Assembly (NCBI GenBank): GCA_012031925.1
Contig: JAAUSE010000001.1
Location: forward strand, 1 to 64,000
Direction: 5' to 3'
DNA: 64,000 nucleotides
Source: Candidatus Altimarinota bacterium
Lineage (GTDB): Bacteria > Patescibacteriota > JACMRA01
Shown: in pieces, positions 51,254-56,937 of the stretch
How the letters are laid out: the number at the start of each line of letters is the position of its first letter
Numbering within the stretch: position 1 is the stretch's first letter
Notes under the pieces: model-generated
What the model saw: the letters and a program-made list of their open reading frames with translations, nothing else
Database searches by the model: none
Told to the model about the DNA's origin: nothing
Made by a program: the position numbers and the translations under genes

Positions 51254-52164
51254 ATGTCTTTATTTTTTTTATTTGTTACAATAATTATTGTTTTGATTCT
51301 TCTTGGGCTTTACACTGTCAAACAACAGAATGTGGCTATTGTTGAGCTTTTTGGAAAATTCTCCAGAACTGGCAATCCTGGATTAATTTTAAAATTCCTT
51401 TTTTTGAAAGAGTTGCTGGTCGTGTTAACCTTCGTGTGCAACAATTAGATGTGAGTGTGGAGACCAAGACCAAGGATAATGTCTTTGTTAGGGTGGTTGT
51501 TAGTGTGCAGTATTTTGTGCTTCCAGAAAAGGTTTATCAGGCTTTTTATTACTTGAGTAATCCAGAAGAGCAAGTGACCAGCTTCGTGTTTGATACTGTG
51601 AGATCTACTGTACCAACCATTATCCTTGATGATGTTTTTGAGAAAAAAGATGATATTGCTGATGCTGTCAAAAAAGAATTGTCAACGGTTATGGGGGATT
51701 TTGGGTACGACATTCTCAAAGCCTTGGTGACCGATATTGAGCCAGATGAAAAAGTCAAAGACGCTATGAACGAGATCAACGCCGCTCAAAGACTCAGGGT
51801 CGCTGCTACAGAAAAAGGTGAAGCTGAGAAAATCCTCAAAGTCAAACAAGCAGAGGCAGACGCTGAGAGTAAAGCTCTAAGTGGAAAAGGTATCGCCGAT
51901 CAAAGAATGGCAATTATTAACGGGCTCAAAGAATCTGTAGATGATTTTCAAAAAAGTATTCCAGGCACGGATGCGAGTGATGTGATGAATTTGGTTCTAA
52001 TTACGCAGTATTTTGACACTCTCAAAGACATTGGGTCTGGAAACAACTCCAACACAATTCTCCTCCCCCACTCCCCTGGAACAATTGGAGAATTAAGTGA
52101 CCAGATTAGACAAGCAATAATAACTGGCGTGGAAACTTCTAAAAAAACTAACCAACGAGGGTAG
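51254..52164 (+). CDS. SPFH/band 7 (stomatin/HIR-like) membrane protein
   Basis: An N-terminal membrane helix (LFFLFVTIIIVLILLGLYTV) is followed by an SPFH domain (VKQQNVAIVELFGKFSRTG...). As given it is split at 51448. One added A/T near 51382-51386 gives PGLNFKIPFFERVAGRVNLR and one 303-residue protein. VETKTKDNVFVRVVVSVQY is the band-7 core, and a long Ala/Glu coiled region (DAMNEINAAQRLRVAATEKG) follows, typical of stomatin/HIR oligomerisation. Such proteins build membrane microdomain cages. Codon use between about 51650 and 51900 is noticeably less AT-biased than neighbours, which may mean high expression. Confidence 0.85.
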
Positions 52165-52218: not shown

Positions 52219-52742
52219 TTATTTTAATAGAAAATAGATCACCCCAATTGAAATAATATTGAACCCAATAGACAATATCAAACTTCTATTGAAATTAGAT
52301 TCAAGTTTTGATTCAAGTTTTGATTCAAGTTTTGATTCAAGCTTAATATCAAGGTTATTCTCAATATTCTTCTCAAGATTGTCAAATCTTTTTTGGAGAT
52401 TATCGTACTGTTCTTTGGTAAACATCTTTTGATCCTTGTACTTTTCTTTGATTGAATTGGCATTTTGGTTCAGTGAATAGACCAAAAACGAAAACAAAGC
52501 CGCGAAAAAATAGAAATAAGTGGGAGGTCTATTAATAAACCTAATATTTCTTCAAAATCATTTATTGCGTAGTAAGTAATGATGATAATTGAAGTGTATA
52601 AACTTATTGGATTCTTTTTTAGCTCGTTTTCTAGCCAGTTTACTATTTTGCTAGATGATAGCAAAAATAATATAGATAAAAACACCCAAATAATTGCAAT
52701 CAATGCTGGTTTGAAAAGCTGAATGTCTTCTGGAGAAAACAT
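52219..52742 (-). CDS. membrane protein with extracytoplasmic coiled coil and KLES repeats
   Basis: Two frames (52470-52796 and 52219-52497) join when one base is added near 52531-52538, giving FINRPPTYFYFFAALFSFLVYSL and a 174-residue protein from ATG 52742. TTG 52796 is a -35 box (TTGACA). It has three N-terminal membrane segments, a coiled coil (about 105-150; YDNLQKRFDNLEKNIENN) containing four KLES tetrads, and a C-terminal membrane helix. The KLES run is encoded by 12-bp tandem repeats, so copy number may vary. Function unknown. Confidence 0.6.
52299..52341. repeat. 12-bp tandem repeat (about 3.6 copies)
   Basis: The unit ATTCAAGTTTTG repeats without mismatch from 52299, ending in a partial ATTCAAG. 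Length is a multiple of three, so copy changes alter the coiled coil by four residues without frameshift. Confidence 0.85.
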
Positions 52743-52891
52743 ATTTTTGCCCCACGATAATGTTTGTATTATTACACAAAAATAGTCAATTGTCAACTGG
52801 CTCAGTGGTTGGTTGAATGAACTACAAATCTATTTTAGAATCAAGTCTTTGATAGCTTGGTAACTTAAGTTTCAAAGCAATACGTAATTAA

Positions 52892-52915
52892 AAACCCACT
52901 TTTATAAGTGGGTTT
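52892..52915. terminator. perfect 10-bp hairpin, bidirectional terminator
   Basis: AAACCCACTT (52892-52901), loop TTAT and AAGTGGGTTT (52906-52915). Stem plus A/T flanks fit a terminator for the minus-strand frame ending at 52929. Confidence 0.75.
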
Positions 52916-52920
52916 ACTTG

Positions 52921-53381
52921 AGTTAGGTTTACTTAATATTTTCTAACTCTTTGAGAAGCGAAACTTTTTTACTTTCGCAAAAAGGCTTTGCTCTTTTTAA
53001 GGAGAGGATTTGGTAAGCATTACCAGTATAACCTGGGAAGCCCAACTCTTCTTTAGTGTCTTTTTTAGTCATCCAAAAAGACACTGGGTGCGTTGGCAAC
53101 CCAGCAATATCACCACCCATCCAAGTATTGTCAAGGGTGGGTCTTTCACCCTTACCCACTCGACAACACCCAAAAGAGCTTCTACCTGCACTCCTCAAGA
53201 TACAGAGCAGATCTTGGTATTTGGAAATACCAAGACGTTCTTTATACTCATCCAAATAATTGGTGATGAGTATAAAGAACTTTACCAGATCCTCCATTGA
53301 GGAATATTGGAATTGCTCCAGCTTATTCTTTAGATCTAAAAGACCTAAAGATTTTGCTGAGTTTTTAGGTTGTAAAAAACC
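52921..53381. repeat. array of about 13 consecutive inverted repeats
   Basis: Stems (arm coordinates): 52921-26/52943-48; 52958-63/52973-78; 52979-84/52993-98; 53011-16/53020-25; 53034-37/53041-44; 53055-65/53075-85 (11 bp); 53084-89/53099-104; 53113-18/53135-40; 53212-22/53225-35 (11 bp); 53237-52/53265-80 (16 bp); 53291-94/53299-302; 12-base palindrome 53329-40; 53343-49/53364-70; 53368-71/53378-81. Arms are perfect and nearly abut. Local GC is higher than in the flanks. It could be a structured RNA, a DNA element or a decayed mobile element. Confidence 0.75.
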
Positions 53382-53393
53382 AAAAACCTTCAT
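52929..53393 (-). CDS. hypothetical 154-residue frame running through a palindrome array
   Basis: ATG 53393 follows AGAGGA (probable ribosome binding site) and a TTGACA box at plus 53444-53449 on the minus strand. The predicted protein starts with a helical part (SLGLLDLKNKLEQFQYSS). It then has an odd Gly/Cys/Trp-rich centre (GRSSFGCCRVGKGER, NTWMGGDIAGLPTHPVSFW) unlike any neighbour. The whole gene is made of adjacent short inverted repeats, and two plus-strand frames across 53010-53300 are also open. I cannot tell whether it is a true protein gene or an incidental frame within a structured element. No family is recognised. Confidence 0.4.
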   Translation of the reverse strand: MKVFGFLQPKNSAKSLGLLDLKNKLEQFQYSSMEDLVKFFILITNYLDEYKERLGISKYQDLLCILRSAGRSSFGCCRVGKGERPTLDNTWMGGDIAGLPTHPVSFWMTKKDTKEELGFPGYTGNAYQILSLKRAKPFCESKKVSLLKELENIK

Positions 53394-53443
53394 AATGAAT
53401 ATGTCCTCTATATTTTATTTCCAACTTCTCCAAAACCACTTTT

Positions 53444-55858: not shown

Positions 55859-56937
55859 ATGAATATCTTATGTATCAACACAGGTAGTACTAGTCTCAAA
55901 TATGAAGTTTTTGACCAGAATCATGTCTCAACCTTGAAAGGTGAATTTGGGAGTAACGACATCTTGGACAGATTGATTGAAGAGTTAGTGGATAACTCAA
56001 TGCAAATAAATGACTTTGATGTTGTGGTTCACCGAATTGTTCATGGTGGTGGCCAATATATAAAACCAACTCATATTACTGATGATGTCTTGAACAACCT
56101 CAAAGAATTAAATCACCTAGCTCCCTTACACAATCCACCAGCTCTCAAAGTCGTGGAGGAGATTTTTAGAAGATACCCAGATACTATTCAATATGCGGTT
56201 TTTGATACAGCTTTTCATGACACCAAAAAAGAAGTTGCCAAATACTATGGGCTTCCACTGGAGTTACAAAAAGATTTGAAAATTCAGCGGTATGGATTTC
56301 ATGGTATTTCTCACAATTACATTTCGGACTTTATTAGGAAGCAATACGGAGAAGATCAAAAAATAATTTCCTGTCATTTGGGAGGAGGATGTAGTATTTG
56401 TGCAATTGCTGATGGGAAAAGTGTTGATACAACAATGGGTTTTGGCCCAGAAGAGGGCTTGATAATGGGAACTCGTTGTGGTGATCTTGGAGCTGCGGTT
56501 GTTTTGTACCTTATTAGAAAAGGTTACAACCCAGATCAAATTGAAAATATTCTTAATCAAGAAAGTGGGCTATTGGGTCTCAGTGGTGTAAGTTTTGATT
56601 TGCAAGATCTTGAAAAAATCAAGAAAATCCTCAAGTAAAATTAGCCCTGGATGTTTTTGTATATAAGATTTTTAAAGAAATTGGGTCGATGTTGGCTGCT
56701 TTGGATGGAGTTGATGTACTGGTATTTACTGGAGGAATCGGGTTTGGTAGTAATTATATTAGAGAGAAAGTTGTAGCTGGACTTGGATTTTTGGGAATAG
56801 AGATTGAAAATATTGAAATAAATACTGATAAAAAAATCTCAATCGATGATTCAGCTGTGGAAGTTTGGGCTATAGAAACCAAAGAAGAAAAACAGATGTT
56901 AGATAATTATTTTGCACGTAGTCAAGAGCTTATTTAA
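55859..56937 (+). CDS. ackA: acetate kinase (one-base lesion)
   Basis: Acetate kinase makes ATP and acetate from acetyl-phosphate. N-terminal NTGSTSLKYEVF, VVHRIVHGGG, FDTAFHDT, YGFHGISHNYI, HLGGGCSICAIADGKSVDTTMGF and TRCGDLGAAV are all present. As given the frame stops at 56638. One A added to the A6 run at 56613-56618 gives NQENPQVKLALDVFVYKI and continues into FTGGIGFGSNYIREKV and the C-terminus (359 aa, slightly short). It sits 4 bases behind phosphoketolase, so it is co-transcribed. Because the active-site residues are conserved on both sides of the break, the lesion is probably an error in the sequence. Confidence 0.93.

Follow-up and report, generated by a model that had tools for sequence, protein, structure and literature searches.

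A small bacterial gene with a message predicted to form one hairpin after another between its second codon and its stop

In RNA viruses and ssRNA phages, coding RNA is folded as one hairpin after another, to a degree far exceeding that of shuffled controls, and the RNAIII of Staphylococcus aureus is a multi-hairpin RNA of about 500 nt which encodes a 26-amino acid peptide in a small part of its length. Palindromes are also found inside bacterial ORFs as dispersed repeats, as in the case of the Rickettsia palindromic elements and REPs (PMC3733652). Inverted repeats inside coding sequence have nonetheless been reported as rare, owing to the conflict with the encoded protein (PMC6649704). In the mitochondria of Nematomorpha, perfect inverted repeats of up to 284 bp are numerous in translated genes, and their arms encode conserved residues with protein and stem kept together to no obvious function; among the longest repeats codon phase 1, where the protein constraint is weakest, is favoured and phase 3 is avoided, and template switching has been proposed as one possible source (PMC6649704). 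Template switching can produce a perfect short-loop stem in a single step (PMC8794818), and in yeast can alter several codons at once (PMC8604942).

The window we analysed is a 64,000-nucleotide stretch (G000:C35:1-64000) of a 1.07-Mb draft genome, for which five relatives of the same class, all within one family, were among the genomes examined. An original prediction made from the letters of the window had described an array of palindromes in a block that is GC-richer than its flanks, and both observations hold: the GC content is 0.43–0.47 compared with about 0.30, and the whole-block RNA fold has a z-score of -9.75 on the plus strand and -9.47 on the minus strand (0/100 shuffles were as good). 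Comparison of the window with shuffles in 240-nt pieces gave the block a score of -9.4, with -4.6 for the next unrelated place. Every 240-nt piece of 1.05 Mb of the genome was also scored by how far it departs from a regression on composition, and all of the four lowest-scoring pieces fell inside the block, putting it first in those 1.05 Mb (among the next-ranking places that we examined, several are at or next to a tRNA or the tmRNA, with others having long perfect stems or being unclassified). The same is seen among coding-sense windows (4,850 from 759 ORFs), with a z-score of -8.05 for the block and -3.85 for the runner-up. Eight perfect stems of at least 9 bp (loop 3–15) occur in the window, four of them within 52892–53280. 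The longest had been predicted to be of 16, 11 and 11 bp, and the first two are as described (hairpins 4 and 9 in Table 1), while the third is a perfect stem of 10 bp that only reaches 11 through a G.U pair (hairpin 5). The stems have no mutual sequence resemblance.

The block is flanked by a broken SPFH/HflK-like gene plus two small minus-strand ORFs on one side, and by a phosphoketolase gene on the other (start 53491, plus strand); no such block adjoins the full-length phosphoketolase found in two genomes of the family. We note that several neighbours are seemingly split by single-base frameshifts (the SPFH/HflK-like gene, a membrane/coiled-coil protein gene and the acetate kinase gene, at 51254–52164, 52219–52796 and 55859–56937 of the window), with the apparent frameshift in ackA lying near an A-run at about 56613; these reflect either homopolymer sequencing or assembly errors, or real decay.

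The predicted stems run along the minus strand from codon 2 to the stop of a single ORF, leaving the Shine-Dalgarno-like sequence unpaired (Table 1). The 3' arm of the longer-range helix can also form a competing local 6-bp stem (53011–53025). The hairpin lying beyond the stop codon is likely to be an intrinsic terminator, as judged by eye, and is unlisted by a consensus terminator scan.

Table 1. Features of the hairpin block (window positions) and loci of a separate palindromic element from the same genome.
Feature	Position	Strand	Description
Protein-coding gene	52929..53393	-	154 aa; ATG start, TAA stop; sole fully open frame of six
Shine-Dalgarno-like GAGGA	53404..53408	-	10 nt before ATG; unpaired in predicted fold
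Hairpin 1	53360..53388	-	Starts within second codon; 11 pairs in fold
Hairpin 2	53319..53359	-	4-bp outer helix and 11-bp inner helix (53327-53351)
Hairpin 3	53290..53303	-	5 bp
Hairpin 4	53237..53280	-	16-bp perfect stem; 19 pairs in fold
Hairpin 5	53211..53236	-	10-bp perfect stem (53212-53235) plus G.U
Hairpin 6	53182..53210	-	9 pairs
Hairpin 7	53123..53171	-	Long stem, 20 pairs including 4 G.U, over Gly/Cys-rich centre
Hairpin 8	53086..53102	-	5 pairs in fold
Hairpin 9	53055..53085	-	11-bp perfect stem over most conserved protein motif, VSFWMTKKDT
Hairpin 10	53030..53048	-	7 pairs
Longer-range helix	53011..53115	-	13 pairs (53103-53115 with 53011-53024); encloses hairpins 8-10
Hairpin 11	52956..52993	-	15 pairs
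Hairpin 12	52920..52949	-	7 bp, across stop codon
3' hairpin	52892..52915	-	10 bp, ends in T-run TTTTT, 13 nt past stop; likely terminator
74-nt element	L025:6802-7216, L030:7450-7522, L070:5547-5620		
74-nt element	L016:3726-3799, L059:194-578, L049:19643-19784, L010:5560-5712, L067:284-469	-	

Three frames had been thought to be open through the block, but we found this of the minus-strand ORF only, with the other five frames containing 3–14 stops. The coincidence of the palindromes with a single odd frame had been recognised in the original prediction, which suspected a gene without choosing that reading; the frame itself is real, and we conclude that it is a genuine protein-coding gene belonging to a small, strongly diverged and lineage-restricted family, because it is the sole open frame, has a positive codon score, a Shine-Dalgarno-like sequence and start, and a hairpin past the stop, and has a homologue in a genome of the same family (G003). 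The codon log-odds come to +15.6 bits, or 0.10 per codon, which is below the 0.31 ± 0.14 typical of genes in the window, and GC3 is raised (0.37 compared with 0.26), as if pairing were overriding codon preference. No sigma-70-type promoter was scored upstream. The 154-aa protein gave nothing significant in Pfam, PHROGs, NCBIfam, PADLOC or the PDB, and AlphaFold2 models, with a helical N-terminal half of modest confidence, a low-confidence centre and a C-terminal helix, had a mean pLDDT of only 49–52 and were too poor for a fold search.

The homologue in G003 (C9:17337-17765) is a 143-aa ORF which is collinear with the block protein over its full length and shares 27% identity with it, and the local alignment score of 85 exceeds the shuffled maximum of 61 (z-score of 11.7, 0/2000 shuffles). 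Positions conserved between the two include GL.T, VSxWxTxKD and N.Y.I. The neighbourhood differs, with the G003 gene lying divergently beside a leucyl-tRNA synthetase gene (this synthetase, of 1217 aa at L093:5873-9523, is an unusual fusion in which NUDIX and Ham1-like domains separate the first catalytic part from the editing domain). The predicted fold of the homologous mRNA is unremarkable, with z-scores of -0.86 against dinucleotide shuffles and -0.93 against synonymous shuffles, compared with -8.2 for the block gene; the protein is conserved between the two genomes, and the hairpin structure is not. These two genes are the only members of the family known. A two-sequence profile found no further convincing homologue in 380 genomes of the phylum, no genome of the same genus as the source organism was found, and no relatives were identified in phages, plasmids, viral contigs or genome contigs, the pattern-seeded contig scans among these searches reaching close relatives only. 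Two other matches were rejected as chance, one in G058 that is surrounded by ordinary genes and shows no unusual fold, and one in G004 with no long ORF. As the sole homologue is without the fold, covariation gives no support for a function. With two members to compare, a gain of the structured state in the source lineage would be the simpler reading because that state is the improbable one.

The discrete chain of hairpins, about 480 nt in length and ended by a hairpin with a T-run, resembles what might be expected of a structured non-coding or dual-function RNA like RNAIII that overlaps the ORF and is itself the main product, and in one of the two windows of the local 240-nt scan the minus strand is the stronger (-9.41 compared with -7.05). 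We regard this explanation as improbable. Rfam returned no match in the window at the gathering threshold, and with a relaxed threshold gave only weak hairpin look-alikes, the best scoring 24.6 bits against 60. A single-sequence covariance model of the block core, run against 380 phylum genomes as had been proposed in the original prediction, recovered the locus itself and one ordinary-folding match at E 0.07, and so nothing convincing from the 379 other genomes. Furthermore, the G003 homologue conserves the protein without the structure, which is the outcome that the original prediction had itself named as speaking against a structured RNA.

Even less probable, in our view, is a role at the level of DNA, in which a hairpin-binding or hairpin-nicking protein would act on the palindromes, or in which these would be the relics of inserted palindromic mobile elements. 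Over the whole block the plus strand gives as strong a signal as the minus strand, and the genome contains both a degraded fragment of a Y1 transposase, lying at the end of a contig, and a palindrome family of its own. Yet the block occurs once in its genome with no hairpin sequence shared elsewhere, its stems are unlike one another and unmatched by the dispersed palindrome family found at tRNA ends, and they fill a conserved protein gene instead of interrupting it. The earlier suggestion of a palindrome-based mobile element is not borne out by this single-copy block. A retron or DRT was also considered, but no reverse transcriptase was found in the genome using RVT_1.

The palindrome family is of interest in its own right. 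It consists of a 74-nt element with helices of 12, 9 and 8 bp, which has 22 matches at E <1e-5 in the source genome; 57 relatives, among them all five from its own family, have none. In at least seven copies the element begins directly at the CCA end of a tRNA or the tmRNA, and several copies are in tandem. Covariation within the element is strong, with 43 double-changed cells compared with 14.5 in shuffles (0/500), and in the loci searched no Rfam family scored at its gathering threshold. The element may serve in 3' processing or as a terminator, or may be a REP-like mobile palindrome. The Y1 (HUH) transposase fragment (L112, G000:C46:6-113) has one internal stop, and is a possible mobiliser of this family.

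The excess of stems in the block gene is made by codon choice and not by the protein sequence. The ORF folds with z-scores of -7.9 and -8.2 against synonymous shuffles, and of -8.8 against random encodings drawn with the codon usage of the genome. It contains nine non-overlapping perfect stems of at least 6 bp (75 bp in all), whereas the protein encoded at random 300 times has 3.3 ± 1.4 such stems (22 bp), with a maximum of 8 stems and 53 bp. When the 16 residues under hairpin 4 were encoded at random 20,000 times, 16 bp was never reached; for hairpin 5, 21/20,000 such encodings reach 10 bp, and for hairpin 9, 286/20,000 reach 11 bp.

The main rival to a functional explanation is that the array has a mutational origin without function, in which template switches recurring between short inverted repeats (quasipalindrome correction) perfected the stems of a weakly constrained gene one by one and left the mRNA fold as a by-product. 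Such events are documented in the creation and upkeep of stems (PMC8794818) and, in coding genes of yeast, as changes of several nucleotides at once (PMC8604942); the stems here are for the most part perfectly Watson-Crick paired and show no RNA-strand bias, the G003 homologue is without them, and the same genome has a palindrome family whose arms change together. Against this, at least nine events would have had to occur in one 465-bp gene with the frame never broken, which needs both a local hotspot and constraint on the protein, and nothing comparable is seen in the other genes of the genome. In these, stems of 8, 9 and 10 bp are at or below expectation (225 observed compared with 278 expected, 58 with 75, and 10 with 23, respectively), 11-bp stems equal it (6 compared with 5.7), and only the tail of at least 12 bp slightly exceeds it (5 compared with 2.3). 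The absence of an excess below 12 bp from other genes favours something particular to the block gene, and we consider a purely mutational origin less likely than retention, if still the most serious competitor.

Pairing long kept in the mRNA would be expected to leave more G.U than A.C. In helices chosen strand-neutrally, the non-Watson-Crick oppositions on the mRNA strand are six G.U and four A.C, a comparison of low power which is either uninformative or slightly against long-kept pairing at the mRNA level. The longest stems lie in codon phases 2, 3 and 1, and phase 1 accounts for 76/156 of all predicted pairs, though the helices are few; with the stem phases mixed, we dropped codon-register bias as proof of protein constraint.

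This is a protein gene with about 12 coding palindromes, and our preferred reading is that the array has probably been retained for an effect on the mRNA and that the stems may have been born by template switching; we give this roughly an even chance (about 0.5). Individual stems may have arisen through template-switch (quasipalindrome-correction) mutations that the protein tolerated. The mRNA is predicted to form hairpin after hairpin between codon 2 and the stop while leaving the Shine-Dalgarno sequence free, and the array would have been kept in the source lineage for something that the folded message would do after transcription; the most likely effect would be to limit the access of nucleases and slow elongation while the initiation site stays open. 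A mixed history of this kind, template-switch birth followed by presumed retention for the mRNA effect, fits the stem-excess and the G.U/A.C tests. More tentative is the stronger claim that the gene is under joint selection for its protein and for a wall-to-wall hairpin mRNA in one lineage, the structure being absent from the same-family homologue; if true, it would be a natural example in which an entire coding sequence has been recoded for structure, with a function at the mRNA level. With one gene far outside the distribution of 759 ORFs of its own genome, and a relative with a similar protein and no such structure, the locus provides a test case for whether intragenic mRNA structure is selected or made by template-switch mutation.

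Of the known systems, the block differs from RNAIII in having an ORF that fills its RNA and a fold that the homologue does not share, and from the RNA viruses and ssRNA phages in being a single chromosomal gene for which no viral relative was found. The Rickettsia palindromic elements and REPs are dispersed, whereas the block is single-copy and its stems are mutually unrelated. Template-switch hairpins have been described as separate events in many genes, and here a single gene holds an array. The coding palindromes of Nematomorpha are the nearest precedent we found, and the best reading of the block gene is that it is of the same kind, in one bacterial gene: in both there are inverted repeats inside an ORF, and an 11-bp stem here covers the conserved VSxWxTxKD motif. 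It is unlike them in that the stems reach only 16 bp, with about 12 in a single 465-bp bacterial gene and no general excess in the genome, in that the phase bias seen in Nematomorpha is not clear, and in having a homologue without stems.
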